Shown: piece by piece, positions 18,631 through 35,010 of the stretch | Layout of the letters: each line of letters begins with the position of its first letter | How positions within the stretch are numbered: the stretch's first letter is position 1 | DNA from: Fervidobacterium pennivorans DSM 9078 | Lineage (GTDB): Bacteria; Thermotogota; Thermotogae; Thermotogales; Fervidobacteriaceae | Reading direction: 5' to 3' | Length of the DNA: 64,000 bases | Assembly (NCBI RefSeq): GCF_000235405.2 | Contig: NC_017095.1 | Span: 124,001 to 188,000 of the forward strand | Notes under the pieces: model-generated | Databases searched by the model: none | What the model saw: the letters and a program-made list of their open reading frames with translations, nothing else | Told to the model about the DNA's origin: nothing | Position numbers and translations under genes: made by a program

Positions 18631-19689
18631 GATAGTGTTAACTTGTAGTGATGAAAGAGTGTAATTGTGAAAGAATGCGATTGATATTGCCATTGTGCGT
18701 TTTCCAAAGATTCTTCACTACACAAAATCCTTGAATATATTTCGCTAAGTTCTTCGTATTCTTCAGCCCTCGCTTGAGTCGGAAAAAGTCTTTCAACAAT
18801 GAAAACTTAGATTCACATTGATTGTTTTTACCGAGCGGTACCACTACGTGATTGATATTTCTGAACAACAGCTTTACTGCACTTTCATATGCACCAAGTC
18901 CATCAGTAATAAGTTCAATGTTTCTAGGTTTTGAATTACCAAAGAACTTCTCGAGCAATACTTTGACTTGTCCCATATCACGATACTTTGAGACATGCCA
19001 ACAAAGAATTAAGTTAGTTTCGTGATCAACTAATAGCCAAACATAGTACTTTTGTTCTTTGAACACAAGAACAGTTTCATCAGCATGAACTGAGAAAACA
19101 TTTTCGATGGTAAATGTTGGAAAAAGTACAGAGAATAAAGTACACAATTTAATAACCCATTTGTATATGGTGACATGAGATACTTTGATATTAAGAGAAT
19201 GAGCAAGAGAGCGATAAGACATATTGTGTTTCATATACAAAACAAAAGCCTTTAAGACGAAAAAGATAGGGAAGCGGAAATATTTAAATTTCTCAGGAAT
19301 AAGGGTGACTGGTTCGGGGAGGTTAAAAGGTACTCTATCTTTGGTACGACAAGCTCTACAACGGAAGACAACGAAAGAGCGACGGACTTTGTAAATTTGC
19401 ATAGATTTACCACAAGAAGTGCATTTGGGATAAGGGAAAGGGAAGTTTTTGCGTTTTTGAGAATGGGAGAGTTTGAAAGAATGATGGCAGAGTTTGCAAA
19501 GGAATTGTTGGTTACCGTATTTGTCATGACCGTTTTTGTATAAGCTGGTGGAACCGCATTTTGGACAAGAGAGCGTTGAGTTGTTCATATCGGGATACCT
19601 CCTTTGTCGAGAGTTGGTTGGGGGGTGTCCCCTCTTTATAAGGATAATGCAGTTTTTGGAAAGTTTCAATACTTTTAGTTAACATTATC
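18631..19689. mobile_element. Intact insertion sequence, zinc-ribbon DDE type (1,059 bp)
   Basis: Imperfect inverted ends: left GATAGTGTTAACTTGTAGTG, and right (read on the minus strand) GATAATGTTAACTAAAAGTA. The first 12 bases differ at one position. The element is flanked by an identical octamer, AAACGTGA, at 18,623-18,630 and 19,690-19,697. It carries one transposase gene on the minus strand. An 8-bp duplication and ~1.06 kb size suit IS6/IS1595-like families; I do not assign the family firmly. It separates the GT4 gene from the second epimerase gene. Confidence 0.92.
18638..19588 (-). CDS. Transposase, DDE type with two N-terminal zinc ribbons
   Basis: 316 residues from ATG 19588, preceded on the minus strand by AAAGGAGGTATC. 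Zinc ribbon 1 is CPKCGSTSLYKNGHDKYGNQ ... CKLC; ribbon 2 is CTSCGKSMQIY ... CRAC. A helix-turn-helix follows (YRSLAHSLNIKVSHVTIYKW). The catalytic triad can be read as Asp in SVHADETVLVF, Asp in ELITDGLGAYESA, and Glu in NNQCESKFSLLKDFFR. The frame is intact to a stop inside the left inverted repeat, so the enzyme should be functional and could mobilise the two deleted copies in trans. Resembles IS6-like DDE domains of archaea and Thermotogota. Confidence 0.88.
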   Translation of the reverse strand: MNNSTLSCPKCGSTSLYKNGHDKYGNQQFLCKLCHHSFKLSHSQKRKNFPFPYPKCTSCGKSMQIYKVRRSFVVFRCRACRTKDRVPFNLPEPVTLIPEKFKYFRFPIFFVLKAFVLYMKHNMSYRSLAHSLNIKVSHVTIYKWVIKLCTLFSVLFPTFTIENVFSVHADETVLVFKEQKYYVWLLVDHETNLILCWHVSKYRDMGQVKVLLEKFFGNSKPRNIELITDGLGAYESAVKLLFRNINHVVVPLGKNNQCESKFSLLKDFFRLKRGLKNTKNLAKYIQGFCVVKNLWKTHNGNINRILSQLHSFITTS

Positions 19690-19697: not shown

Positions 19698-19713
19698 TTT
19701 GGGAGGTTATAGA

Positions 19714-20765
19714 ATGAAAGTTCTTTCCTTAGTCGGTGCAAGGCCACAGTTTATTAAGGAAGCGGTTTTACACAAGGAGTTTGAAAAGGCGGGAGTTCAA
19801 GAAGTTTTGGTTCATTCAGGACAGCATTATGACTTCAACATGAGTGATGTGTTTTTTGAAGTACTTGATATCCGTAAGCCCGATTATTATCTGAACGTAG
19901 GTTCAGGGTTACATGGCGAAATGACTGGAAAGATTATGATTGAATTTGAAAGGGCGTTCTTGAAGAAAAGCCAGATGTGATTGTTGTGTATGGTGATACC
20001 AATACCACACTCGCTGGTGCAATTGTTGGTGCAAAATTGAAGATTCCTGTAGCGCATGTTGAAGCAGGCTTGAGACAAGAGCCAAAGGATATGCCTGAAG
20101 AGATTAATAGGGTGCTTACAGATAGGGTTTCAAAGTATTTGTTCTGTCCGACCAAGCTTGCTGTTGAGAATTTGAAAAAGGAAGGAATCGTTGATGGTGT
20201 GTATTTTACTGGTGATGTAATGTACGATTTGTTTTTGATGATGGAGCCGACTTTTAAATACGATGTATTCGAGCTTTTAGGTCTTGAAGAAGAGAATTAT
20301 ATCGTTATGACCCTCCACAGAGATTTCAATGTGGATAACAAAGAGAAGTTTGAAAAGATTTTGAGCGAGGTTGCAAAAGTTGCAGAGCAGATTAAAGTTG
20401 TCTTCCCAGTCCATCCAAGAACCCGTAAGAGAATTTCTGAATTTGGTTTGGATGGGTATTTGAAAAATGTTACAGTAATCGACCCAATCGATTATTTGAA
20501 CCTTATGGGCTTGGTGAAGAAATCTTGGAAGGTTATTACCGACAGTGGTGGGTTACAGAAAGAAGCGTATTTTGCAGGCAAACGAGCTGTTGTTGTAATG
20601 CCGGATACAAGCTGGCGAGAGCTTGTTGAGAGTGAGTGGAACATCTTAGCAGATGGTGAAGGAATTTACGATGCTGTGTTTTCTTCTCAAGAAAGGCCAT
20701 ATCCAACAGGGCTGTATGGAAATGGCGATGCAGGCAACAGGATAGTGGAGATTTTGAAGCAGTAG
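19714..20765 (+). pseudogene. UDP-sugar 2-epimerase (WecB/WbpI-like) with a one-base frameshift
   Basis: The first part, from ATG 19714 to about 19,950, reads KVLSLVGARPQFIKEAVLHK, VLVHSGQHYDFNMSDVFFEV and KPDYYLNVGSGLHGEMTGKI. The second part, in the frame ending at 20,765, reads LEEKPDVIVVYGDTNTTLAG, HVEAGLRQEPKDMPEEINRV and VITDSGGLQKEAYFAGKRAV. A single missing G at about 19,953 (GCGTTCTT where GCGGTTCTT is expected) shifts the frame and causes a stop at 19,978. Otherwise the gene is complete. The P-Q-F-I-K and K-P-D-Y-x-L-x-V-G-S-G blocks set it apart from the classical wecB at 16,445 and resemble WbpI-type epimerases. A 3' piece of a close paralogue lies at 32,113. Confidence 0.88.
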
Positions 20766-21136: not shown

Positions 21137-21166
21137 TTGGAAAATGGAACGTATGAGTGATATGAT
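21137..21166 (+). promoter_or_regulatory. Promoter of the sugar-acid operon
   Basis: TTGGAA (21,137-21,142), an 18-bp spacer and TATGAT (21,161-21,166). Start expected near 21,173, some 65 bp before the first gene. The roughly 250 bp between the terminator and this promoter show nothing recognisable. Confidence 0.6.
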
Positions 21167-21178
21167 ACGTAACGAAAC

Positions 21179-21189
21179 TGGTAAGACCA
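21179..21189. promoter_or_regulatory. FadR-type GntR operator TGGTAAGACCA
   Basis: TGGT-N3-ACCA is the core recognised by FadR-subfamily GntR regulators (E. coli FadR sites share TGGTNNNACCA). It lies just downstream of the predicted start site, where binding would block transcription. The third gene of the operon encodes a regulator of exactly this subfamily. Confidence 0.7.
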
Positions 21190-21238
21190 CTATACCATCA
21201 TACCTTGTATATCTAGTCAATCTATGGAGGTGTCTCGT

Positions 21239-22258
21239 GTGAAGAGCAAAGTTGCAATTGTCAATTCAAGCAGTTTCGGAAAGTATTTCCCTGAGCATGT
21301 TGAAATACTTCAACAAAAGTTTGACGTTCAGAGGTTCGATTTACCACCGAAATTGAGTGGTAGAGAGTTGGCAGATGTTCTTAAAGGTTTTAAATACATA
21401 ATTGCAAGTACAACACCTTTCTTTGATAGCGTGTTTTTTGATAATGTCGAAGGTTTGGTACTGATATCAAGACACGGCCTTGGGTATGACAACATCGATG
21501 TAGGTAAAGCGACGGAGAAGGGAGTTATAGTAACCAAGGTTCGTGGAGGTGCTGAACGCGAGGCGGTTGCAGAACATGCGATAGCCCTTTGTATGTCAGT
21601 TTTGAGGAAAGTTCCTCAGTCGTATAGCAAGGTGTTGCAATCAAAGTGGTCGGAACGACAAAAGTTCTTCGGAATTGAGTTGAAAGGTAAGACAGTGGGA
21701 ATAATTGGATTTGGGAATATTGGAAGCCGTGTTGCAGAAATCGTGCACTTTGGTTTCAATGCAGATGTTGTTGTATATGACCCATTTGTGGCTGAAGAAA
21801 ATATGAGTTACGTTAATGCAAGAAAGGTAGAACTTAACGAGCTCGTTAAATTGTCCGATGTAATATTCATCTGCGCGAAGTACACAAAGGAAAATTACCA
21901 TATTCTGTCTACAAACGAATTCGAGATGATGAAAGAAGGCGTGTACATAGTAAATACTTCGAGAGGGGAACTAATTGATCAAGAAGCGCTTATTCAAGCG
22001 TTAGAATCCGGCAAGGTTGCTGGTGTAGGGCTCGACGTTGTTGAGGGTGAGCCGATAAACGGGGAGCATCCTCTTTTGAGATTTGATAATGTCGTGGTCA
22101 CACCTCATATTGCGGCGTACACTTTTGAAAGTATAAAGGCTATGGGTGACAAAGTGGTCAGTGACGTTCTTCGAGCTGAAGAAAGAATAATACCGGAGGA
22201 AGTAGTGAATGTTGCAGTAATAAAGAAACTGGAGGAAGAAGGATGGAAAAAGATTTGA
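21239..22258 (+). CDS. D-isomer 2-hydroxyacid dehydrogenase (possible 2-ketogluconate/glyoxylate reductase)
   Basis: 339 residues. GTG 21239 is preferred because GGAGG ends nine bases before it; ATG 21224 lies on the ribosome site itself. The NAD(P)-binding loop is KGKTVGIIGFGNIGSRVAEI (about residue 145). The catalytic set follows the family: Arg in VNTSRGELIDQEALIQALES, Glu in GVGLDVVEGEPI, and His in VVVTPHIAAYT. Reading with its neighbours (FGGY kinases, 6-phosphogluconate dehydrogenase, TctABC), reduction of a keto-sugar acid such as 2-ketogluconate is plausible. Phosphoglycerate or hydroxypyruvate reduction is also possible on family grounds. Its end overlaps the next gene by 16 bp. Confidence 0.85.
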   Translation: MKSKVAIVNSSSFGKYFPEHVEILQQKFDVQRFDLPPKLSGRELADVLKGFKYIIASTTPFFDSVFFDNVEGLVLISRHGLGYDNIDVGKATEKGVIVTKVRGGAEREAVAEHAIALCMSVLRKVPQSYSKVLQSKWSERQKFFGIELKGKTVGIIGFGNIGSRVAEIVHFGFNADVVVYDPFVAEENMSYVNARKVELNELVKLSDVIFICAKYTKENYHILSTNEFEMMKEGVYIVNTSRGELIDQEALIQALESGKVAGVGLDVVEGEPINGEHPLLRFDNVVVTPHIAAYTFESIKAMGDKVVSDVLRAEERIIPEEVVNVAVIKKLEEEGWKKI

Positions 22259-23703
22259 TTCTTGCTGTGGACGTTGGAACGACTTACTTGAAAGCGGGAT
22301 TGGTTGATGCAGAAGGTAATATCCTGAGGTCTTGTAGAAACAAGATTAGGATGGATGTTGACCCGTCCGGAAAAGCTGAGCATAATGTTAAAGACCTCTC
22401 AAGACTTTTGCAGAAAACGATGAAGAAAGTAGTTGATGGATTTGAAAAGCGTGTAGCCGCTATTGTTCCATCCACATATATCTTTGGTTTGATGTTGCTT
22501 GATTCGAATAATGTTCCGCATTCGAATATGATTACCTTAGCAGATACACGAATCAGAGAAGTTATGTGCGACTTTAAGGGCTATTTCGATAGAGACTTCA
22601 TTTACTCAAGAACAGGTATGCCTCCAACGTTTCATACCGCGCTTGCAAAGGTTTTTTGGAGCCTAAGGAGGCTTCAAATTGAGGATCTAAGGAAAGTGAA
22701 GTTCGTGTCGTGTAAGGATTACATCGTTCTTCTTTTGACCTCCAAGCTTGCGACTGAACCAAGTACGGCTTCGTCAACAGGGTACTTCAATACGTTTACC
22801 TTGGACTGGGATGATGATATTTTAAGCTTTTTGGGAATAAGTAGAAATAACCTGCCTGAGATACTTTCACCTTACACGGTGATTCCGTTGAAAAAGGAAA
22901 TTTCTGACTATCTCGGGTTGCCAAGAGATGTTGGAGTGGTAATGGGTTTGTACGACGGTGGAGCTGTAGCTCTTGCTAGTGGTGTTTTTGGGAATAAAAG
23001 AAGAGCTGTAGTAAACCTCGGAACCACAGGGATGGTTCGAGTTATCTCAGAGCGGCCTTTCATATCTTCCACCCCCATGCTTAAGACTCAGACTTTGTAT
23101 CTGTGCAACGGTAGGTGGTTCCCTGGAGGTTCCGTGAATAACGCAGGTTCTGTAATTGAATGGCTGAGGAAAGTTTTAAGGATAAACCTTGATAAATTTC
23201 GTTCACATGAAGTTAAACCGGTCAAAGGATTGCTATTCCATCCTTATATAACTGGTGAGAGGGGACTGGAGTTCGGTAGCGAAGCAAAAGGGATGATTCA
23301 AGGGCTTGAATATAAGATTTCTGCTGAAGATATACTCACAGCAGCTTTGGAAGGTATTTCATTCACGTTGCGAATGATGGTAGAACCCCTTATAGAAAAA
23401 GGCATTGGTTTTGAGAGAGTGACTGTGTCTGGTGGAGGAACAAAGTTGAAGCAATGGCTTTACATACTTGCGAATGTTCTTAAGAAGGAAGTTGAGGTCT
23501 CACGGTTTGAAGAACCCGCTCTCGTTGGATCTACGATGTTGGGAGGTGTTTCATTAGGCTGGTTTGATTCGTTGAATGACGCTACAAATCATATTGTTAA
23601 GGAAGGAATGATCGTGACACCGGACCAAGAGTTAGTTGAAACGTACGATGAGAAGTTTGATGCTTTTTTGGGTTCTCTTAAACGTATGTACATTGAAAAG
23701 TGA
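22243..23703 (+). CDS. FGGY-family carbohydrate kinase (gluconokinase/xylulokinase-like), first copy
   Basis: 486 residues. The phosphate-1 loop is ILAVDVGTTYLKAGLVDAEG. The central ATPase part holds GVVMGLYDGGAVALASGVFG with the catalytic Asp, and AVVNLGTTGMVRVIS. The C-terminal adenosine loop is VTVSGGGTKLKQWLYILANV. Length and motif order match FGGY kinases. In this setting it most likely phosphorylates a sugar acid such as gluconate, but the acidic-sugar specificity is not readable from motifs. A second, clearly different FGGY kinase lies 1.4 kb downstream in the same operon, suggesting either two substrates or a heteromeric role. Confidence 0.87.
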   Translation: MEKDLILAVDVGTTYLKAGLVDAEGNILRSCRNKIRMDVDPSGKAEHNVKDLSRLLQKTMKKVVDGFEKRVAAIVPSTYIFGLMLLDSNNVPHSNMITLADTRIREVMCDFKGYFDRDFIYSRTGMPPTFHTALAKVFWSLRRLQIEDLRKVKFVSCKDYIVLLLTSKLATEPSTASSTGYFNTFTLDWDDDILSFLGISRNNLPEILSPYTVIPLKKEISDYLGLPRDVGVVMGLYDGGAVALASGVFGNKRRAVVNLGTTGMVRVISERPFISSTPMLKTQTLYLCNGRWFPGGSVNNAGSVIEWLRKVLRINLDKFRSHEVKPVKGLLFHPYITGERGLEFGSEAKGMIQGLEYKISAEDILTAALEGISFTLRMMVEPLIEKGIGFERVTVSGGGTKLKQWLYILANVLKKEVEVSRFEEPALVGSTMLGGVSLGWFDSLNDATNHIVKEGMIVTPDQELVETYDEKFDAFLGSLKRMYIEK

Positions 23704-23715
23704 GGGGTGAACTCC

Positions 23716-24471
23716 TTGTTTGAGGAGATTGATAAGACCCAAACCTCCGAAAAGATTGTTGAGGAAATCGTTAAATTAATATCGAGTGGCAAACTTAAAC
23801 CGGGACAGGCGTTACCACCGGAGCGAGAGTTGGCTTCACGACTGGGTGTCAGTCGAGTGGCCTTAAGAGAAGCGATAACGTCTCTTGCAATGCTGGGAAT
23901 TGTTGAGAAGCGCTGGGGGAAGGGTAATTTTATCTCGGAACAGCTGAATTTGTCAATTGTTCAGAGGTTTACGAAACATTTAATAATTTCAAAGCAACTG
24001 GAAATATTTGAGGTTATGGAGGCAAGACTTGCAATTGAAAGTGAGTTGGCTGCTTTCGCTGCCCTTAGACGAACTGAAGAAGATATCGAAAGGATTCAAA
24101 AGGCGCTTGACAAATACTTGAACACAAGTCGAAAGAGCATCAAGAGAGTTGAGTATGACAAGGAGCTTCATTTTGCAATTGCGAAGGCCGCTAAAAACAG
24201 TATTCTGGAAAGCCTCCAGAATGCCGTGATGAATAAGGCTTTTGAGGTTATTAAGATCACGACGAAGGTAGGTATTGCGTACAAAAATACGGAAGAAGAA
24301 CACAAGAGAATTGTTACCGCGATCATCAGTGGGAATCCCGAATTGTCGAGAATAGAAATGACCAAACATTTATTGATGGCAACGGAAAGGGTTTTCTCCT
24401 CAGAGAAAGTTTTGGATAAAGCGGTTTCTGAAAGATTACAGTGCTTAATAAAAGGTTTACTAACGAAGTAG
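23716..24471 (+). CDS. GntR-family transcriptional regulator, FadR subfamily
   Basis: 251 residues from TTG 23716, six bases after GAGGGGTGA; the earlier GTG 23707 overlaps that ribosome site. The winged helix reads LKPGQALPPERELASRLGVS then RVALREAITSLAMLGIVEKR and WGKGNFI, the textbook GntR head. The C-terminal ~160 residues are the all-helical FCD domain, with EVMEARLAIESELAAFAALR and the metal-ligand region EYDKELHFAIAKAAKNSILE. FadR-subfamily members controlling sugar-acid genes (UxuR, ExuR, GntR-like) respond to aldonates or uronates. The operator at 21,179 fits this subfamily, so autoregulated repression of the operon is the simplest model. Confidence 0.9.
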   Translation: MFEEIDKTQTSEKIVEEIVKLISSGKLKPGQALPPERELASRLGVSRVALREAITSLAMLGIVEKRWGKGNFISEQLNLSIVQRFTKHLIISKQLEIFEVMEARLAIESELAAFAALRRTEEDIERIQKALDKYLNTSRKSIKRVEYDKELHFAIAKAAKNSILESLQNAVMNKAFEVIKITTKVGIAYKNTEEEHKRIVTAIISGNPELSRIEMTKHLLMATERVFSSEKVLDKAVSERLQCLIKGLLTK

Positions 24472-24484
24472 GAGGGATTTTAGG

Positions 24485-25105
24485 ATGCACAAAGACGAAG
24501 TAGCTGCTTTGATCGAAAAGGAACGGTTTATAGCAATTTTGCGTACCAGCAGTACGGAAGATGCAGTAGAAAAAGGTGTTACCCTGAGCGAAGAAGGTGT
24601 CAAGTTGATTGAAGTAACCTTTACAGTTCCAAACGCAACGGAGGTCATAAAAGAACTTAAAGAAAGGTGTCCGGATGCTGTTATAGGCGCTGGTACCGTC
24701 ATTAATTTGGACATGTGTGTTGAAGCGCTGGAAGCCGGTGCTGAATACATAATCTCACCAAACTTTGATCCGGAAGTTTCAAAGTTTTGTGCAGAGAGAG
24801 ATATTTGCTACATTCCCGGAGTTATGACACCAACTGAAATTGTGAATGCCTATCTGGCTGGTAACACTATTCTCAAGCTTTTTCCTGGAGATATTCTAGG
24901 ACCAGCGTTCATCAAGGCTATGAAGGGGCCATTCCCGAACGTGAATTTTATTGTCACAGGCGGAGTTTCACCAGACAACGTTTTAGAGTGGCTCAAAACA
25001 GGTGCCTTTGGTGTTGGTATGGGTGGTTCTCTGGTAAGTGGATCAAAAGAAGAGGTCAGGGAAAGAATTAGGAATGTATTGAAGAAGATAAGGGAACTTT
25101 CTTAA
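24485..25105 (+). CDS. eda: 2-keto-3-deoxy-6-phosphogluconate/4-hydroxy-2-oxoglutarate aldolase
   Basis: 206 residues from ATG 24485, with GGAGGGATT upstream. FIAILRTSSTEDAVEKGVTL corresponds to the normal A-I-V-R start. GVKLIEVTFTVPNATEVIKE carries the catalytic Glu. VIGAGTVINLDMCVEALEAG and FLAGNT-like NAYLAGNTILKLFPGDILGP include the Schiff-base Lys (K-L-F-P). IVTGGVSPDNVLEWLKTGA binds phosphate. It splits KDPG to pyruvate and glyceraldehyde-3-phosphate. No 6-phosphogluconate dehydratase (edd) is in the operon, so the KDPG must come from phosphorylated 2-keto-3-deoxygluconate or from genes elsewhere. Confidence 0.93.
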   Translation: MHKDEVAALIEKERFIAILRTSSTEDAVEKGVTLSEEGVKLIEVTFTVPNATEVIKELKERCPDAVIGAGTVINLDMCVEALEAGAEYIISPNFDPEVSKFCAERDICYIPGVMTPTEIVNAYLAGNTILKLFPGDILGPAFIKAMKGPFPNVNFIVTGGVSPDNVLEWLKTGAFGVGMGGSLVSGSKEEVRERIRNVLKKIRELS

Positions 25106-25138
25106 TGTACTTCAATTTATGGACGGTGGTGTTGTGGG

Positions 25139-26689
25139 GTGAAGCGTTACTATATTGGAGTAGACGTTGGAACTTCGAGTACTAAGGCTGTTGTCTTCGA
25201 TGAAGAGGCACTTGAAGTTAGGTACAAAGCTGTTGAGAACTACGCGTATAGTTTCGATGAAAAGATCGGCATTACTATAAGACCGAAAGATATTGAAGCG
25301 GCTCTGGAAAGATGTCTAAGAGATGCAGCGAATTTCTTGAGAGAGCTTTCTTCGGATAGGAAAGAAATATATTTGGTCGTAGATACTATGTTGCACTCGT
25401 TACTTTTCTTAGACAGCGATATGAAACCTGTTGCCAACATCATCCCATGGACCAATGATTTGGGAACAACAGAAGCGATCAAAATCCTCAAGAACGAATC
25501 GGTAGCGACGCTCTTACATAGCAGAACAGGTTGTCCTGTTGCGCCAACGTATCCATTCTACAAGTTAATATGGTTTTCAAAAAATGAGCAAGATTTTCTG
25601 AAACAAGTGACTAAGATTGCGTCTGTGAAGGACTATATAATCCATCTCCTTACGGATTCACATTTCGTTGATAAATCAATCGCAAGTGGTTCGGGCTGCT
25701 ACGATATTAGAGCTGATAGATGGGCAGATGACTTGCTGAGAGATTTTGCTAAGGTTGATTCATCAAAATTTCCAAGTGCAGTTTCAGGAAATACGGTGCT
25801 AAAACCCAGTAAATTCTTGACGAGCTTATTCGATGAAAAAAATTTCGATCTAAGGGTCATTGTTGGAACCTCTGATGGAGCTGCATCGAGTATGGGGACA
25901 ACGTTCGGCGATAGTAGTTTGATTACGATATCGATGGGAACAAGTGCTGCGATCAGAAGAATCACCAGTAAGATCCCTGATGTTGAAGATATGCCTGGGT
26001 TTGGCCCGTGGTGCTATATATTCGATGATAACAACTATATAGTCGGAAGCGCTACAAATAATTGCGGCAATGTTTTGAACTGGTGGAAAGATAACTATCT
26101 GAAGTCAAGTGATTACACTCCATACGAACAGACTCTTAACCGGATTTTGAACGATGAAGCAAGGATTCAAAAACCTAATAACTATAGGGTACTTTTTAAG
26201 CCAACTGTTTTTGGAATGCGCTCGATCAGGTGGATACCGTATCAGAAAGGAGAGTTTTATAATTTATCACCACATACAAGTGTTGATGACTTAACAGCCG
26301 CAGTTATCGAAGGGTTGGTGTTTAAGTTTAGAAGAGCCGTCAATGTGGTCGAGGAAGTCACACGCAAACTATTAGGAGACGTTACTGGATTTGTGGCTTC
26401 AGGAGGGTTGTTGGAAATACCGGGGTTCGGGAACTTGCTCTCAACCGTATTGAACCGAGGCATTTTTTACAGGAGTAATAGGTACGACGCTGTGCTTGGA
26501 ACCGTTCTTTTTGCTCTAAGATTAGTCAACAAAGCCCAGTTCGAAAAGTTTGTGAATACCAACAAGGAAACGAAAATCATATCGCCGACATTGAAATTTG
26601 TGGGCTTTTACGAAGGTCTGTATCAAGCATGGACTGAAAAAATAGAGGAAAGTGAAAAGCGCACTCTTGATGAAATTCTAAAGAGCTAA
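25139..26689 (+). CDS. FGGY-family carbohydrate kinase (gluconokinase-like), second copy
   Basis: 516 residues from GTG 25139. It starts KRYYIGVDVGTSSTKAVVFD and contains VIVGTSDGAASSMGTTFG with the catalytic Asp. TISMGTSAAIRRIT and a late GFVASGGLLEIPGFGNLLST complete the FGGY ATPase core. The sequence VPWTND-like NIIPWTNDLGTTEAIKIL resembles gluconate kinases of the GntK/XylB branch. It shares only general motifs with the kinase at 22,243, so the pair is not a recent duplication. Likely role: phosphorylation of gluconate to 6-phosphogluconate, the substrate of the dehydrogenase at the end of the operon. This is inferred from context. Confidence 0.86.
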   Translation: MKRYYIGVDVGTSSTKAVVFDEEALEVRYKAVENYAYSFDEKIGITIRPKDIEAALERCLRDAANFLRELSSDRKEIYLVVDTMLHSLLFLDSDMKPVANIIPWTNDLGTTEAIKILKNESVATLLHSRTGCPVAPTYPFYKLIWFSKNEQDFLKQVTKIASVKDYIIHLLTDSHFVDKSIASGSGCYDIRADRWADDLLRDFAKVDSSKFPSAVSGNTVLKPSKFLTSLFDEKNFDLRVIVGTSDGAASSMGTTFGDSSLITISMGTSAAIRRITSKIPDVEDMPGFGPWCYIFDDNNYIVGSATNNCGNVLNWWKDNYLKSSDYTPYEQTLNRILNDEARIQKPNNYRVLFKPTVFGMRSIRWIPYQKGEFYNLSPHTSVDDLTAAVIEGLVFKFRRAVNVVEEVTRKLLGDVTGFVASGGLLEIPGFGNLLSTVLNRGIFYRSNRYDAVLGTVLFALRLVNKAQFEKFVNTNKETKIISPTLKFVGFYEGLYQAWTEKIEESEKRTLDEILKS

Positions 26690-26707
26690 ACCTTTGGGGG
26701 TGTTATT

Positions 26708-28222
26708 GTGGAGGCTTTCTTGAAAACGTTCCAGGTAGGTATACCCATAGTGTTAAACCCGCAAAATCTTTTAATAATAGTTATTGGTACAGTCTGGGGG
26801 CTGATATTTGGTGCGGTCCCAGGGCTCACAGCAACGATGGGTGTCGCTTTGGCGTTGCCCCTAACGTATGGTCTAAATCCATATAGCGCATTGGCTCTGT
26901 TAAGTGCAATTTACGTTGGCGCTATATCGGGTGGATTTATCTCAGCGGGGTTGATAAATATTCCGGGAACTCCTTCATCTATTGCAACAACATTTGATGC
27001 TCATCCCATGGTGAAAAAAGGACAGGCACCACTTGCGATGGGAATTTCTCTTATGAGTTCGTTGTTCGGTGGGCTCATAGCGGTATTCGCGATGATAATA
27101 GCTACCTATTCATTGGCCCAAGTGGCCTTGAAGTTCGGCCCGTTTGAGTATTTCGCACTTGGTATCCTCGCATTTGCTGGTTGTATTGGAATGTTTGAAG
27201 GGGGAATAGTGAAGAATACCCTCTCAATACTTCTCGGACTTCTTATTGCTACAGTCGGAGCAGACCCACTAACAGGTGTTAAGAGGTTAACGTTTGGAAT
27301 TGAGAATCTTATTGCAGGAATAGATATTCTGCCACTTCTAATAGGATTGTTTGGTTTGAGTGAAGTATTTGTAGCCATAGAGCAGCGCTCGAAGTTTGTT
27401 GTTCCGCCAGAAACTAAAAAGATGAGAATGGGTTTCAAGGTGGTCCTTGAGTCGACGAAACTGATATTCAGCCAGCCGATTAATTTCATCAGGTCGTTGA
27501 TTATCGGTTTTATTATAGGGGTGTTTCCAGGCGTTGGTGGGGCAACCTCCAGCGTTATAGCTTATGGACTTGCCAAATCGTATTCCAAACATCCGGAAAA
27601 GTTCGGAACGGGAATCCCAGATGGTGTAATAGCTTCTGAAACCGCCAACAACGCTACCATCGCCGGAGCACTGGTTCCTCTGTTGTCGCTCGGAATACCT
27701 GGTGATTCAGTCACTGCGATGATGATTGGAGGGTTTATGATACACGGAATGATCCCGGGACCGATGCTGTTTGCGGAGCATGCTGACAGTGTTTATACAG
27801 TGTTCGCATCTCAGATCCTTGCTAACATAACGATGGTTGTACTTGGGCTCGTACTGATGCGATTTATTATATCTGCCTTAAGCGTCAAGTCATATTTCCT
27901 CTACCCGGTTATAACCATCGCGATGGTTGTTGGTGCTTATGGACTCTACAACAGGGTCTTTGACATCTGGGTAGCACTCTTCTTTGGGTTTGTTGGGTAC
28001 GTCTTAAGGAAAGCAAACTTTCCTCTTGTACCTCTTATAACTGCTTTCATACTCGGTCCTATTGTTGAAAAAGGGCTCAGACAAGCTCTCGCATTGTCAG
28101 AGGGTAGTTTAATGCCACTGTTCACAAGACCTATTTCGCTAACTCTAATAATACTTGCGGTATTTCTCTTTGTTCTTGGGCTATACATCAACGCGCGCGT
28201 TGCAAAGAAACAAAGTGCTTAA
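26708..28222 (+). CDS. tctA: Tripartite tricarboxylate transporter, large membrane subunit
   Basis: 504 residues from GTG 26708 after GGGGGTGTT. About 11-12 membrane segments. TctA signatures: GAVPGLTATMGVALALPLTY near residue 36, GLINIPGTPSSIATTFDAHP near 85, and a second repeat GVFPGVGGATSSVIAYGLAK near 275, with LVPLLSLGIPGDSVTAMMIG. It forms the ion-driven permease with TctB and is fed by a periplasmic TctC protein. TTT systems carry citrate and also many other organic and sugar acids. Being in the sugar-acid operon points to an aldonate as substrate. Gene order tctA-tctC-tctB is complete. Confidence 0.93.
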   Translation: MEAFLKTFQVGIPIVLNPQNLLIIVIGTVWGLIFGAVPGLTATMGVALALPLTYGLNPYSALALLSAIYVGAISGGFISAGLINIPGTPSSIATTFDAHPMVKKGQAPLAMGISLMSSLFGGLIAVFAMIIATYSLAQVALKFGPFEYFALGILAFAGCIGMFEGGIVKNTLSILLGLLIATVGADPLTGVKRLTFGIENLIAGIDILPLLIGLFGLSEVFVAIEQRSKFVVPPETKKMRMGFKVVLESTKLIFSQPINFIRSLIIGFIIGVFPGVGGATSSVIAYGLAKSYSKHPEKFGTGIPDGVIASETANNATIAGALVPLLSLGIPGDSVTAMMIGGFMIHGMIPGPMLFAEHADSVYTVFASQILANITMVVLGLVLMRFIISALSVKSYFLYPVITIAMVVGAYGLYNRVFDIWVALFFGFVGYVLRKANFPLVPLITAFILGPIVEKGLRQALALSEGSLMPLFTRPISLTLIILAVFLFVLGLYINARVAKKQSA

Positions 28223-28254
28223 ACTTATCCTTATACCAGGAGGTGTGGTGTGTT

Positions 28255-29208
28255 ATGACAAGAAGGTTAGTGTTTTTGGTTCTTAGCGTTTTGCTGACAT
28301 TACTTCTGGTCACACTTAGCTTCGCCGCTTATCCGGAAAGACCGGTAACTGTTGTTGTTCCGTATTCAGCAGGTGGTGCAAGTGATATAACAGCAAGGCT
28401 CATAGCAGAGTTTTGGAAGAAGTACACTGGCAAAGAAATGATAGTAACCAATGTTGTCGGAGCAGAAGGAGCGGTTGCAGCCAGACAAGTGCTTCAGACA
28501 AAACCAGATGGTTATACCGTACTTTGGTACCACCAGGCCGTATTGGGAAACTACTACCTTGGCGTAGCGGATATAAAGTGGACGAACTTTACACCGGCGT
28601 GTATCGTAACAAAGACCTCGAGAATAACTGCGGCACGGGCAGATGCTCCCTGGAATAATTTGAAAGAAGCTATTGAAGATGCAAAGAAAAATCCGAAGAA
28701 GTACGTGTACGGAGCCGGTGCAGGTGGAATAGCTTATTTGGAATACGCTCCGATCGAGATGGCAGCTCCAGGTGCATTCAGAGTGGTTCCTAACGAGGGT
28801 GGAGATGCGCAAAGAATTGCTGCCTTACTTGGTGGCCACGTCGATATTGTTCCATTAGCTCTTGTCTCAGCCGTTCAGTATATCAAGAACGGGCAAATCA
28901 AGGTTTTGGCTGTGCACGATGATCAACCAGACCCGTTCATACCCAATGCGCCAACGGCAGCTTCTCAGGGACTTAGGAGTCTGAAATTCCCGATGACAAA
29001 CACGTTTTTCTTCCCTCCAAGAACTCCGGCTAACATAGTGAACGAGTTCAACAAGATTATTGAAAAGATAGTAGCCGACTCAGAATTTCAAAAGAAGTTG
29101 GCCGAAGTTGCATACGCAGTCCCGTTCTTTAAGACTGGAAACGATCTGTTGAATTTCTGGAGAGAACAGGAAGCAGTTTACATGAAAGCAGCTCAAGTAG
29201 TTAAATGA
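28255..29208 (+). CDS. tctC: Tripartite tricarboxylate transporter, extracytoplasmic binding protein
   Basis: 317 residues from ATG 28255, nine bases after AGGAGGTG. A signal peptide is clear: basic MTRR, hydrophobic LVFLVLSVLLTLLLVTLSFA, and cleavage around AFA/AY. The mature protein starts YPERPVTVVVPYSAGGASDI, the classic Bug/TctC ligand-binding start (the P-Y-x-x-G-G-x-x-D motif contacts a carboxylate). GYTVLWYHQAVLGNYYLG and LGGHVDIVPLALVSAVQYIK are other conserved blocks. It captures the acid substrate in the periplasm for TctAB. Which acid cannot be read directly. Confidence 0.92.
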   Translation: MTRRLVFLVLSVLLTLLLVTLSFAAYPERPVTVVVPYSAGGASDITARLIAEFWKKYTGKEMIVTNVVGAEGAVAARQVLQTKPDGYTVLWYHQAVLGNYYLGVADIKWTNFTPACIVTKTSRITAARADAPWNNLKEAIEDAKKNPKKYVYGAGAGGIAYLEYAPIEMAAPGAFRVVPNEGGDAQRIAALLGGHVDIVPLALVSAVQYIKNGQIKVLAVHDDQPDPFIPNAPTAASQGLRSLKFPMTNTFFFPPRTPANIVNEFNKIIEKIVADSEFQKKLAEVAYAVPFFKTGNDLLNFWREQEAVYMKAAQVVK

Positions 29209-29276
29209 GAAATACAACAGTGGGGGGCAACGTGCCCCTCACATATTCAAACTAAGAGCTGGGGAGGAATCATCAT

Positions 29277-29774
29277 ATGAAAAAATTGACTAACATACTA
29301 AAGAACCTAATATTCCCAATAATATTTATCGTTGTATCGATAGTAAGCTATATACAAGCTGCATTAATTCGAACCCTTCGATTTGGCGGCTCACTCGGTG
29401 GAGATTTCTTTCCAAAACTGATTTCTCTACTTACATTACTGTTCTCCATTTTGTGGCTGGTAATGGAAATCCGAAGTCTGAAGAAGAAGTCTCAGGTTGC
29501 AGAATCTTCAAATGATGCAGGTCATAATGTTGGATTTCGCAATTCTCTACTGTTTTTGATAATCTTCGCTGCTGCGGTATGGCTCATGAAATACGTGGGT
29601 TTCCTGCTTTCCGCGTTCTTGATAGTTTTCTTTAACTACATTTTCTTGAAAGATGAGATGAAATTGAAAGATCTGCCGTTAGCTATCGCATATACGGCGG
29701 TTGTTTCTTTTGGAATCTGGTATCTCTTTGAGAAAGTCTTTGAATTGGTTTTTCCGAGAGGCATTTTCTGGTAA
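29277..29774 (+). CDS. tctB: Tripartite tricarboxylate transporter, small membrane subunit
   Basis: 165 residues from ATG 29277 with GGGGAGGAATC upstream. Four hydrophobic segments: residues about 10-28, 42-58, 85-104, and 112-160 in two parts. The loop LGGDFFPKLISLLTLLFSIL has the G-x-x-x-F-P motif after the first helix that marks TctB. It completes the TctABC set. Sequence conservation in this subunit is always low, so the call rests on topology, motif and neighbours. Confidence 0.87.
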   Translation: MKKLTNILKNLIFPIIFIVVSIVSYIQAALIRTLRFGGSLGGDFFPKLISLLTLLFSILWLVMEIRSLKKKSQVAESSNDAGHNVGFRNSLLFLIIFAAAVWLMKYVGFLLSAFLIVFFNYIFLKDEMKLKDLPLAIAYTAVVSFGIWYLFEKVFELVFPRGIFW

Positions 29775-29820
29775 GTTGGGTTGTTCTAAATTCTTTAAAA
29801 TGATTTAGAGGGTGATAGAT

Positions 29821-31245
29821 GTGGACGGAAAGAGTGACGTTGGAATAATTGGGCTTGGTACCATGGGTAAGAATTTATCACTCAATTTTGCACAGAAAGG
29901 TTTACGTGTTAGTGTTTACGACAAAGAATACGGAGTAACTAAGCAGTTCTTATCAAGCATTCCTTTCTCCTATAGCATTCGAGGCTTCCAAGGTATCGAT
30001 GCTCTTGTTGAATCTCTCAGTAGACCAAGGGTGATTATCTTACTCATCACGGCTGGGAATCCGGTAGATGAGGTCATTAATTCGCTTATTCCATTTCTGG
30101 AAGTAGGAGATATAGTAATAGACTCCGGAAATTCGCACTTTAAAGACACCGAAAGACGCTATAGGTTCCTCGCTGAAAAAGGCTTCCGCTTTTTAGGGAT
30201 GGGCATTTCCGGTGGTTCTGAAGGAGCTTTAAAAGGGCCCTCTCTGATGCCCGGTGGGGATTATCAAGCGTATAAACAGGTCGAAGAAATGCTGAAGAAA
30301 ATCGCAGCTAAGAGTAGATATGGTGAGTGTGTGAATTACATGGGTGAGCGCTCAGCAGGGCACTTTGTTAAAATGGTGCACAATGGCATTGAATATGGGA
30401 TAATAGCTGGCATCTCTGAAGTTTATCAAGTAATGCGTGAAGTCTTATTGCTACGAACAGATGAAATCGCAACTATTTTTGAAGAATGGAACGAGTTGCT
30501 GTTTGATTCATTTCTGCTCAGGGTTGCAAGTATCGTCTTGAGACAGGTCGACGAACTTACAGGTGCTCCTTTTATAGATGTGATCCTTGACGTTGCAGAG
30601 CAGAAGGGGACAGGTCTGTGGTTTACTCAAACTGCGTTAGAGCTAGGAATTCCTGCAATCACGATAGCAGCTTCAGTGAACAGCAGAATGATTTCAGTGT
30701 TCAAAGAACTTAGAATGAGGATTTCTAAGAACTCTCAAATAAAGAGGCGTTCACTGGAACAGGAAAGTTTAGGTTTAGACTTGATAAGTTTACTCAAGGA
30801 TGCCCTTATGTTTGTTAACTACATTGCTTTTAGTGAGGGACTGTGGTTGTTAACGCGAGCCTCGAATGAATTTGGCTACAACGTCCAGTTAGATAATGTG
30901 TTAAAAGTTTGGAGAAAAGGAAGTATCCTCGAGTCAAGTTTCATAGATTACTTACTGTTGGAAGATCTTGGAGGTTTGGGATGCTTAATTGAGAAAGAGA
31001 ATATCATAAAGAATTTGAACCTTTTGTACGAAAATGTTATCCAGGTTAGCAGTATAGCCAAAAGATACAATATCCCAATTCCTGTTATTGATTCCGCTAT
31101 TAATTTCTATCTCTCTATTGTTTCTGAAAAGCTGCCTGCAAATCTTGTTCAGGCGATAAGGGATTGGTTTGGTTATCATGGGTTTTACAGGGTCGATAAG
31201 CCGAATCAAGTATTCCACTTTGAAAAAGGAGAAGCTGATAGCTAA
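29821..31245 (+). CDS. gnd: 6-phosphogluconate dehydrogenase (decarboxylating)
   Basis: 474 residues from GTG 29821; AGAGGGTGA gives proper spacing, better than GTG 29812. NADP-binding loop: VGIIGLGTMGKNLSLNFAQK. Active site: FLGMGISGGSEGALKGPSLM then PGG, and SAGHFVKMVHNGIEYGIIAG with the catalytic Lys and the His-Asn-Gly-Ile-Glu-Tyr substrate clamp. The end LPANLVQAIRDWFGYHGFYR is the usual tail. It oxidises 6-phosphogluconate to ribulose-5-phosphate and CO2, providing an outlet for gluconate phosphorylated by the operon kinases. Compared with most family members, the middle part (residues 300-400) is divergent. Confidence 0.92.
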   Translation: MDGKSDVGIIGLGTMGKNLSLNFAQKGLRVSVYDKEYGVTKQFLSSIPFSYSIRGFQGIDALVESLSRPRVIILLITAGNPVDEVINSLIPFLEVGDIVIDSGNSHFKDTERRYRFLAEKGFRFLGMGISGGSEGALKGPSLMPGGDYQAYKQVEEMLKKIAAKSRYGECVNYMGERSAGHFVKMVHNGIEYGIIAGISEVYQVMREVLLLRTDEIATIFEEWNELLFDSFLLRVASIVLRQVDELTGAPFIDVILDVAEQKGTGLWFTQTALELGIPAITIAASVNSRMISVFKELRMRISKNSQIKRRSLEQESLGLDLISLLKDALMFVNYIAFSEGLWLLTRASNEFGYNVQLDNVLKVWRKGSILESSFIDYLLLEDLGGLGCLIEKENIIKNLNLLYENVIQVSSIAKRYNIPIPVIDSAINFYLSIVSEKLPANLVQAIRDWFGYHGFYRVDKPNQVFHFEKGEADS

Positions 31246-31315
31246 ACACATAACTTCAAGAAATTCACGGCTGCCCTTCCTTAAGGATAAAATAGTTTCT
31301 TACGTCTCGTATCTG

Positions 31316-31352
31316 GTCTTTCACTCTTAAATCAGGGAGTGGAAGACTTTTT
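31316..31352 (+). terminator. Terminator of the sugar-acid operon
   Basis: GTCTTTCACTC (31,316-31,326) pairs with GAGTGGAAGAC (31,337-31,347), then TTTTTG. Stem of 11 pairs with one G-T, loop of 10 bases. The next ~170 bp up to the broken GT2 gene show nothing I recognise. Confidence 0.78.
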
Positions 31353-31521: not shown

Positions 31522-32110
31522 TTATGCCTTTTTGACAAGTCCAACAAGTGAACCTGTCCCGTACGATATGTGCAAAATTAGGAATGAAGTTAACGTATAG
31601 AAAAATATGCTATTGTCGTTGTGTTTGGTGCTTACAGATGCTGAGAATATGGTAACCATTGCTAAGTAAAGTGAAAGAGAAACCAAGCCAAGTAGTTTAA
31701 AGAAAGTTGGGATGACCGGAATTGAGAGGGTTACAGCCAAAATGAGTAGATAAATGACAAAAAACAAAGGAATTAAGTGCCTTAGCTTGTATGCTTTTTT
31801 CACGTACTTTCGGCTGTGGGTAACCCAAAATCCGTTTGAAAAGTTGTTTTGCCAAAGTCCTTTGAATGTGTCTCTGGCAAAGTAGTACGCTCTTGCTTGC
31901 GGAACAAGCATGATTTTATATCCTGCATCTTTGAGCCTTATGTTGAATTCTATATCCTGATTTCTTATCAATCTTTTATCGAACAGTCCGACCTTTTCAA
32001 AGATTTCTTTTTTGTAAATTCCATAAGCTACCGTGTCGACGTATTCATTCTTCTGAGCGCCTGTTCTGTACTTTGCGCCACCAACTCCGAATGGATGTTT
32101 CAATACCTCA
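31522..32110 (-). pseudogene. 3' part of a GT2 glycosyltransferase gene, truncated at a recombination joint
   Basis: About 196 C-terminal codons remain. SEVLKHPFGVGGAKYRTGAQ, YVDTVAYGIYKKEIFEKVGL, RLIRNQDIEFNIRLKDAGYK and the membrane-rich tail LRHLIPLFFVIYLLILAVTL are closely similar to the intact GT2 at 33,795-34,805. The N-terminal catalytic half with the DxD motif is missing: similarity stops at about 32,111, where an epimerase fragment on the opposite strand begins. No start codon with a ribosome site exists for the remnant. It is one side of a chimeric junction. Confidence 0.88.
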
Positions 32111-32112
32111 GC

Positions 32113-32766
32113 GTGCTCACAGATAGAGTTTCTAAGTACCTGTTCTGTCCGACTAAACTGGCTGTTGAGAATTTGAAAAAAGAAGGTATAGAGCAAGGAG
32201 TTTATTTTGTCGGAGATGTGATGTACGATTTGTTTTTGATGATGGAGCCTATGTTTAAATACGATGTGTTCGAACTTCTTGGTCTTGAGGAAGAAAATTA
32301 TATTGTTATGACCCTCCACAGAGATTTTAATGTGGATAACAAAGAAAAGTTTGAAAAGATTTTGAGCGAAGTCTCAAAAGTTGCGGAGAAGATAAAGGTT
32401 GTTTTCCCAGTTCATCCAAGAACACGTAAAAGAATTTCTGAATTCGGGTTGGATAGGTATTTGAAAAACATTATTGTAATCGAACCGATTGATTATTTAA
32501 ACTTAATGGGCTTGGTGGAGAAATCTTGGAAGGTTATTACCGACAGTGGTGGGTTACAGAAAGAGGCGTATTTTGCAGGTAAACGGGCTGTTGTTGTAAT
32601 GCCGGATACAAGCTGGCGAGAGCTTGTTGAGAGTGAGTGGAACATCTTAGCAGATGGTGAAGGGATTTACGATGCGGTGTTTTCTTCTCAAGAAAGGCCA
32701 TATCCAACAGGGCTGTATGGAAATGGCGATGCAGGGAAGAGGATGGTTGAGATTTTAACTAAGTAA
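32113..32766 (+). pseudogene. 3' part of a WecB/WbpI-like epimerase gene, truncated at the same joint
   Basis: From VLTDRVSKYLFCPTKLAVEN onward the 218 codons are almost the same as the second half of the frameshifted gene at 19,714-20,765, including VITDSGGLQKEAYFAGKRAV and PTGLYGNGDAGKRMVEIL. The N-terminal 120 or so residues, with the G-A-R-P-Q-F-I-K nucleotide site, are absent. The joint with the GT2 fragment lies within two or three bases of 32,111. It cannot make a working epimerase. Confidence 0.9.
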
Positions 32767-33794: not shown

Positions 33795-34805
33795 TTACAT
33801 TACTTTTCTGAATAATCCAAAAATTGAACCTATTCCGTATGATGTGTGCAAAGTTAGGAACGTAATCAATGAGTAGAAAAATAGTTTGAAGTTTCTGTGT
33901 TTGTGGGCTATCTTCAATGAGAATGTTGTAACAAGTGTCAGATAAAGCAAAAAGGGTATTACACAGAGCAATTTAAGAAATGTTGGAATTATAGGGATGA
34001 ACCATGTTATTAAGAGAGTAAGTAAATACACCACAAAAAACAAAGGTATCAAATGGCGCAATCTGTAGGCTCTTTTCACATATTTTGAACTGTGTGTCAC
34101 CCAAAATCCGTTTGAGTAGTTGTTTTCCCAAAGTTTTTTGAATGTGTCTCTTGCATAGTAATATGATTTTGCCTGAGGAACGAGCACAATCTTATAGCCT
34201 GCGCGTTTTAAACGTAAGTTGAATTCGATATCTTGGTTTCTTATCAGCCGTTCGTCAAATAGTCCTATGTTTTCGAAAATTTCTTTTTTGTATATTCCAT
34301 ACGCAACGGTATCGACATACTCGTTGTCTTCTACACCTGTTCTATACTTTGCCCCACCAATACCGAATGGATGCTTTAATACTTCACTTATTGCTATCGC
34401 TTTTGGATTATGAGCTCTTGGGAGTGTTTCCATTAATCCTCCAGCAACATCACAGAGGTTTGACTCGATGGCTTCAACGCAGGCAGATATATAGTTCTCT
34501 GAGTAAGTTGCATGCCCACTTGCTATCATTATATACTTCCCAGAAGCGTTTTGTATACCGATGTTCAAGCCAGCAGGTGTGTGCTTTTTAGGATTTTGGA
34601 GTATCTTTATTTTTGTGGGATATTTTGAGACATATTCTTCGAGAATTTTCTTTGTATTGTCAGTGCTCATACCATCTACCACGATGATTTCGATGGCCTT
34701 GTAATCGTTGTTGAGTAAGCTTTCGAGTGTTTTTGAAATGGTCTTTTCTTCGTTGTAAACAGGGATAATTATCGAGATTTTGTTTTGAGAATTGATATCA
34801 AACAT
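33795..34805 (-). CDS. Glycosyltransferase family 2 with C-terminal membrane segments
   Basis: 336 residues from ATG 34805; the minus strand carries GGAGGAATTC just before it, so the longer upstream frame is not used. KISIIIPVYNEEKTISKTLE is the nucleotide-binding start and EIIVVDGMSTDNTKKILEEY follows. QNASGKYIMIASGHATY takes the DxD position with an altered S-G-H, a known variant in ExoA-like GT2 enzymes. Residues about 230-336 contain two to three membrane segments (LRHLIPLFFVVYLLTLLITW). ExoA-like enzymes add sugars to lipid-linked succinoglycan-type units. A truncated close relative lies at 31,522-32,110. Confidence 0.87.
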   Translation of the reverse strand: MFDINSQNKISIIIPVYNEEKTISKTLESLLNNDYKAIEIIVVDGMSTDNTKKILEEYVSKYPTKIKILQNPKKHTPAGLNIGIQNASGKYIMIASGHATYSENYISACVEAIESNLCDVAGGLMETLPRAHNPKAIAISEVLKHPFGIGGAKYRTGVEDNEYVDTVAYGIYKKEIFENIGLFDERLIRNQDIEFNLRLKRAGYKIVLVPQAKSYYYARDTFKKLWENNYSNGFWVTHSSKYVKRAYRLRHLIPLFFVVYLLTLLITWFIPIIPTFLKLLCVIPFLLYLTLVTTFSLKIAHKHRNFKLFFYSLITFLTLHTSYGIGSIFGLFRKVM

Positions 34806-35010
34806 GTGAATTCCTCCATATGTTTTTTTAGAATTGTTCCATTTGAAAGTATATCGCATTTGATTGTGTTTTCAACTACAAAAGGAGGTAAACGGCAAGA
34901 ATAAGTGAGAAGGTAGCAAATGTAGTGCAGTCAAAACTAGGGGATTGCGTTGCTGGGTTGTTTGAAGGATGTATGGTGGAATTTTAAGAAGACACTGGTG
35001 GTTTTCGATT

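Follow-up and report, generated by a model that had tools for sequence, protein, structure and literature searches.

A nine-gene operon of Fervidobacterium pennivorans with two unlike FGGY kinases and two candidate exits for sugar acids

What supplies 2-keto-3-deoxy-6-phosphogluconate (KDPG) to the aldolase Eda in a genome without a 6-phosphogluconate dehydratase (Edd), and what do the two FGGY kinases encoded in the same operon phosphorylate? These questions are raised by a locus of the thermophile Fervidobacterium pennivorans DSM 9078 (Thermotogota), whose genome is a single contig of 2,166,381 bases (99.95% complete). All coordinates are positions in the 64,000-nucleotide stretch that we analyzed (the window; positions 124,001 to 188,000 of NC_017095.1), and comparison genomes and loci are cited by handles (G0xx and Lxxx, respectively). 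The operon (21224-31245, + strand) is a real and coherent unit that combines known enzyme families in a new way. We read it, tentatively and with somewhat less than even confidence, as a GntR-repressed operon for sugar-acid uptake and two-route catabolism, in which the second kinase, K2, is a 2-keto-3-deoxygluconate (KDG) kinase feeding Eda. In this proposal, the transporter TctABC would import one or more hexonates or ketohexonates. The dehydrogenase DH and the first kinase, K1, would bring mannonate, 2-ketogluconate or gluconate to 6-phosphogluconate, with K1 phosphorylating C6 and DH altering C2 via the 2-keto form, either by reducing 2-keto(-6-phospho)gluconate or by supplying the redox chemistry of an epimerization at C2. 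Gnd would then convert 6-phosphogluconate to ribulose-5-phosphate, while K2 would be an FGGY-type KDG kinase giving KDPG to Eda. Because the two routes would begin from different acids, no dehydratase would be required.

Layout of the operon and its predicted operator

The operon and its predicted signals, all on the + strand, are as follows.

21137-21166, +: promoter-like site TTGGAA-18-TATGAT, with TG before the -10 box (consensus match only)
21179-21197, +: predicted GntR operator TGGTAAGACCACTATACCA, just 3' of the -10 box (mismatch search)
21224-22258, +: DH, D-2-hydroxyacid dehydrogenase, PGDH/GhrB/2-ketogluconate-reductase-like (profile matches, structure homologs, motifs)
22243-23703, +: K1, FGGY kinase (Pfam and NCBIfam profiles, tree, substrate loop, context)
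23707-24471, +: GntR-family FCD regulator (profiles; orthologs with the same operator)
24485-25105, +: Eda, KDPG/2-keto-4-hydroxyglutarate (KHG) aldolase (NCBIfam eda model; match to Thermotoga maritima 1vlw)
25139-26689, +: K2, FGGY kinase (profiles, context, tree, loop, structure model)
26708-28222, +: TctA, large membrane subunit of a tripartite tricarboxylate transporter (PF01970, 476 bits)
28243-29208, +: TctC, periplasmic binding protein (PF03401)
29277-29774, +: TctB, small membrane subunit (PF07331)
29812-31245, +: Gnd, decarboxylating 6-phosphogluconate dehydrogenase (TIGR00873; SGG and KGTG motifs)
31315-31348, +: terminator-like hairpin after Gnd, 14 pairs and a T tail (consensus match only)

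The preliminary description of this locus had named the enzymes and the transporter, and all of them are found where it placed them; its reasoning left out the GntR/FCD regulator (23707-24471). The nine genes are intact, tightly packed and transcribed in the same direction, the reading frames of DH and K1 overlap (the K1 start at 22243 precedes the DH end at 22258), and the G+C content is mostly 42-44%, compared with ~37-40% in the surrounding DNA. Eda passes its family model (TIGR01182, 202.5 bits; cut-off 156.05) and matches the T. maritima KDPG aldolase 1vlw with 239 bits. Gnd likewise passes TIGR00873 (479.4 bits; cut-off 426.7), with the SGG and KGTG substrate-site motifs aligned, and the complete host genome holds one copy of each of these two genes. 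With the Pfam families of TctA, TctB and TctC all represented, the transporter belongs to the tripartite tricarboxylate transporter (TTT) class. DH carries the Arg-Glu-His motifs and GxGNIG and matches, among other structures, 9m0t ("probable 2-ketogluconate reductase", 158 bits); its substrate is likely a hexonate or hexonate 6-phosphate, altered at C2.

Position 21137, at which the preliminary description began, coincides with the -35 box of the best promoter-like site 5' of DH. The site has an extended -10 element, and such sites are no commoner than in shuffled sequences, which also applies to the consensus match of the hairpin at 31315-31348. The predicted operator (TGGTNAGNCCANNATACCA, 21179-21197) is the sole site in the window within two mismatches (shuffle mean 0.05). 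It also lies 5' of DH in G067 and G068 and 5' of the aldolase-K2 genes in G064, and G067 has a second copy, identical to the window site over 19 bases, directly 5' of K2; in the remaining 229 of the 238 loci scanned, the operator was not found. GntR orthologs accompany the same operator in G067 (72% identity) and G064 (47%). The predicted operator connects the regulator with each half of the operon, which would be GntR-controlled; that this control is repression is our inference as to its direction.

The missing dehydratase and KDG kinase

That the operon has no dehydratase gene, as previously described, extends to the whole genome for the ILVD_EDD, UxuA and MR_MLE families. No ILVD_EDD (PF00920) protein, Edd included, was found in the complete host genome, the same search being positive in 14 of 14 control genomes. 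The possibility that the preliminary description had raised against itself, a co-regulated edd gene elsewhere, is thus excluded, and the Entner-Doudoroff pathway, as defined by Edd in the genome, is absent. UxuA is absent as well, and no dehydratase of the families tested was detected, altronate/galactarate-type dehydratases and KduI/KduD lying outside that test. The sole strong MR_MLE protein, considered as a hidden dehydratase, proved to be orthologous to a dipeptide epimerase of T. maritima, with 487 bits to 2zad/3deq; such a gene is present in all nine genus members, with or without Eda.

The usual KDG kinase is also missing. The T. maritima-type PfkB kinase KdgK, recognized by its position in kdgA-kdgK-uxuB-uxuA, is present in 30 of 40 Eda-bearing Thermotogota genomes, and none of the 20 host-family genomes has a match to Thermotoga KdgK at E 1e-30. 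The five PfkB proteins of the host comprise a ribokinase-like protein encoded in the window's ribose operon, two of the 1-phosphofructokinase type, one fructokinase-like protein (170 bits to 3hj6, compared with 33 bits to the KDG kinase 2afb) and one further ribokinase-like protein. For the two that are ambiguous, the nearest structures are a fructokinase and a ribokinase, and a KDG role is unlikely. With no Edd, UxuA or KdgK ortholog, KDPG for the single Eda has no known source, making a kinase of the operon the obvious candidate. The two routes put forward in the preliminary description accordingly stand in terms of gene content, with exits through Gnd and Eda, and their substrates stay conditional. 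Two exits fit better because no Edd joins them and because, with no PfkB KdgK, another kinase has to make KDPG.

We also considered a conventional gluconate operon, with kinases for gluconate and a pentulose and with KDPG made by a 6-phosphogluconate dehydratase of another fold. The best equivalog models of K1 and K2, gluconokinase and xylulokinase, speak for it; however, neither kinase reaches either cut-off, the operon has no pentose isomerase and the known dehydratase families tested gave none, rendering this explanation very unlikely.

The distribution of the genes was surveyed in 103 Thermotogota genomes, which fall in few clades, so that common descent inflates the co-occurrence counts. 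Within the host family, Eda, full-length Gnd, K1 and K2 are found only together, in 3 of the 20 genomes; the operon shows a family otherwise without full-length 6-phosphogluconate dehydrogenase gaining Gnd as a catabolic enzyme. Across the survey, every K1 genome has full-length Gnd (13 of 13), including five without Eda (G037, G048, G049, G051 and G052), and every K2 genome has Eda (13 of 13), 12 of them also having Gnd.

The two FGGY kinases and the neighborhoods of their relatives

K1 and K2 are indeed unlike, as first described: they share 24% identity, although both are two-domain FGGY proteins with both Pfam domains above cut-off and the catalytic Asp aligned with XylB D233. Both fail the gluconokinase model TIGR01314 (K1 208.6 and K2 180.3 bits; cut-off 648.55), a strict threshold, given that T. 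maritima-type GntK itself scores just 369.6. In a tree of 54 FGGY proteins (8 rows for K1 and 9 for K2, with several long reference rows), each kinase forms its own clade (100/100) outside the Firmicute GntK clade (98/94) and the Thermotoga GntK group; the deep branches are uncertain and leave the order of the K1, K2 and gluconokinase groups unsettled. At the loop aligned with XylB Met-His, gluconokinases have (M/F)HS and WAD, K2 has LH(S/T) and PW, and K1, with FG and TL, has lost both the substrate-loop His and Trp. The predicted structures are of middling confidence for K1 and of pLDDT 86 for K2, the latter informing on fold rather than specificity. A single-sequence scan of genome contigs with K2 gave no match. 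Among the matches listed for an alignment scan with two short patterns, those outside Thermotogota were canonical GntK-like only, at 28% identity or less, which is weak evidence that K2 is confined to Thermotogota. The tree, the altered loop residues and the gene context are consistent with the earlier suggestion of an FGGY kinase with an unusual substrate, and sequence, tree and fold together leave the choice of substrate unfixed for both kinases.

The order SDR-Gnd-DH-K1 (SDR, short-chain dehydrogenase/reductase) recurs in G035, G036, G037, G049 and G052; in G049, the SDR scores 385.9 bits against the D-mannonate oxidoreductase model, above its cut-off of 281. D-mannonate oxidoreductase and fructuronate reductase catalyze the same reaction. 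The DH-K1 pair stands alone in G057; there, as in the window and in G067, its genes overlap. K1 goes with DH and Gnd even where Eda is missing, and a reductase that forms mannonate is frequently its neighbor. Conversion of a hexonate to ribulose-5-phosphate is therefore the probable role of DH-K1-Gnd, and our best guess for K1 is a hexonate kinase (mannonate, gluconate or 2-ketogluconate) feeding Gnd. The (2-keto)gluconate substrate named in the preliminary description survives as one option, the fructuronate reductases beside DH-K1-Gnd in relatives pointing equally to mannonate; chemically, phosphorylation of 2-ketogluconate followed by reduction, on the pattern of the Pseudomonas kgu operon, would be an equally good reading of DH-K1. 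The reverse assignment, K1 as the KDG kinase and K2 as a gluconokinase, could draw on the loss of the loop His and Trp in K1 and on G067, where a first unit, DH-K1-GntR-Eda, is separate from a second, K2-Tct-Gnd. However, K1 orthologs, although just 32-38% identical, lie in Gnd operons of Eda-less genomes, and we regard this assignment as quite improbable.

For K2, the G064 neighborhood is as follows: an orthologous GntR gene is followed by two genes of the dihydrodipicolinate synthase (DHDPS) family, whose best model is KDPG/2-keto-3-deoxy-6-phosphogalactonate (KDPGal) aldolase (below its cut-off), and then by a K2 of the window's subclade (100/99). As K2 occurs only in Eda genomes and its G064 relative lies beside aldolase-like genes with the same operator, KDG kinase is our best guess and the best-supported single reading of K2, little ahead of gluconokinase. 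In other Thermotogota, a second K2 subclade is found together with TRAP-SDR-RpiR-DH genes; these genomes have KdgK as well, and the kinases of this subclade may differ in function.

Several observations weigh against K2 as a KDG kinase supplied by TctABC. G064 carries a PfkB KdgK besides K2. K2 retains the substrate-loop His and Trp of gluconokinases, and the solved structure closest to it, by fold as well as by sequence, is 3gbt, whose deposited name is gluconate kinase. In the G067 operon, DH-K1-GntR-Eda-TRAP(P,Q,M)-SDR-UxuB-K2-TctA-TctC-TctB-Gnd, the portion K2-TctACB-Gnd behind its own operator copy fits a gluconokinase feeding Gnd. Finally, where TctABC adjoins Eda in other Thermotogota, its TctA shares only 38-41% identity with that of the operon, and KDG transport by TctABC is accordingly conjectural. 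In an alternative explanation, both kinases feed Gnd: K2 would be a diverged gluconokinase, K1 and DH would handle 2-ketogluconate or mannonate, and Eda would use KDPG from an unrecognized kinase or cleave 4-hydroxy-2-oxoglutarate. The G067 unit is its best argument, joined by the LH/PW loop, by 3gbt as nearest structure and by Gnd in 12 of 13 K2 genomes. It nevertheless leaves Eda, which the host family inherits only with the operon, without a KDPG source, the G064 relative of K2 adjoins aldolases rather than Gnd, and K2 falls outside the sampled gluconokinase groups; we therefore consider it somewhat unlikely.

The preferred reading of K2 as a KDG kinase would have broader meaning. Nine functions have been listed for the FGGY family, with KDG kinase not among them (PMC3245297); if K2 phosphorylates KDG, the family gains a function and KDG kinase a second family. 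The full combination, in which K2 founds an FGGY KDG kinase replacing PfkB KdgK and DH-K1 comprises a mannonate kinase and an NAD-dependent 2-epimerase, filling the gene gaps in the hexuronate-to-pentose-phosphate route of Lactobacillus suebicus, is unlikely.

As a separate observation, Eda adjoins TctC-TctB-TctA in related genera (L137, L139, L140, L150 and L156), a recurring transporter-aldolase link; in L138, L141 and L151 the same genes also adjoin a kinase gene, which in L138, the locus tested, belongs to the ROK family.

Exchange of the operon and comparison with known systems

The operon was probably acquired. Over DH, K1, GntR and Eda (21224-25105), the window and G068 (L045), which are different species-level genomes, show zero nucleotide differences, although the DNA upstream of the operon is only 74% identical, which suggests recent exchange. 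In G068, K2 and TctA are separated by an insertion sequence that has an 8-base target duplication, GCTAAACC. The window has a transposase gene at 18638-19669 (- strand), with similar copies in its own genome (L106:4967-5998) and in the G068 operon (L045:10786-11799). The operon is also flanked by direct partial copies of a UDP-GlcNAc 2-epimerase-like sequence (20109-20755 and 32110-32756; 647 bp, 89% identical), the first divided between two reading frames (19699-19980 and 19977-20765) and the second truncated. A partial glycosyltransferase-like copy at 31745-32110 repeats part of the gene at 33795-34859 (~369 bp, 77% identical).

Among known systems, FGGY gluconokinase (GntK; PMC3245297, 3gbt) has its fold and catalytic Asp in common with both kinases, and the LH/PW loop of K2 is a further likeness; K1 and K2 differ in falling below the TIGR01314 cut-off and in forming their own clades, K1 also being without the loop His and Trp. 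KDG utilization combines PfkB kdgK with eda, and Vibrio alginate loci hold a TTT transporter, GntR, KdgK and Eda (PMC13390454). The present operon shares an Eda of the T. maritima type with kdgA-kdgK-uxuB-uxuA, and the conjunction of TTT transporter, GntR and Eda with Vibrio, whereas here an FGGY kinase adjoins Eda and there is no PfkB KdgK. The Pseudomonas kgu operon, kguE-kguK-kguT-kguD (PMC11678583), offers an analogy for a kinase and a 2-keto-6-phosphogluconate reductase leading to 6-phosphogluconate; it has the single-gene transporter KguT and Edd/Eda, in contrast to TctABC, an FGGY kinase and Gnd without Edd.

Another known system is the UxaR locus of T. maritima, gnd-uxaR-uxaE-uxaD-gntE-gntK (PMC3750489), in which GntE is a LarA-type epimerase of demonstrated activity (PMC7583248). 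It shares a GntR-type regulator, a reductase, a C2-epimerizing step, an FGGY kinase and a homologous Gnd, and it leads from mannonate/gluconate to ribulose-5-phosphate, as proposed here. DH-K1 occupy the place of GntE-GntK between reductase and Gnd, no LarA-type GntE gene being present within 21224-31245; K1 belongs to a different FGGY clade, and Eda, K2 and TctABC are additional.

In extracts of Lactobacillus suebicus, mannonate is converted to 6-phosphomannonate, then to 6-phosphogluconate and ribulose-5-phosphate, the genes of the first two steps being unidentified (PMC6978723). A locus of Lentilactobacillus diolivorans (L215:4736-11530), a candidate hexuronate-to-pentose-phosphate operon, has the order UxuB-UxaC-(341-aa open reading frame)-DH-FGGY kinase, its DH being 44% identical and its kinase, unlike K1, of the GntK type in the tree. 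By analogy, DH and K1 may carry out the L. suebicus-type mannonate kinase and 2-epimerase steps, a likeness drawn from gene context. Such a mannonate route would make galacturonate fermentation redox-neutral down to ribulose-5-phosphate, a point of interest for the conversion of pectin. The operon thus points to candidate genes for reactions without known genes: if DH and K1 take mannonate to 6-phosphogluconate, they are testable candidates for the two activities shown in 2020 in L. suebicus (PMC6978723).

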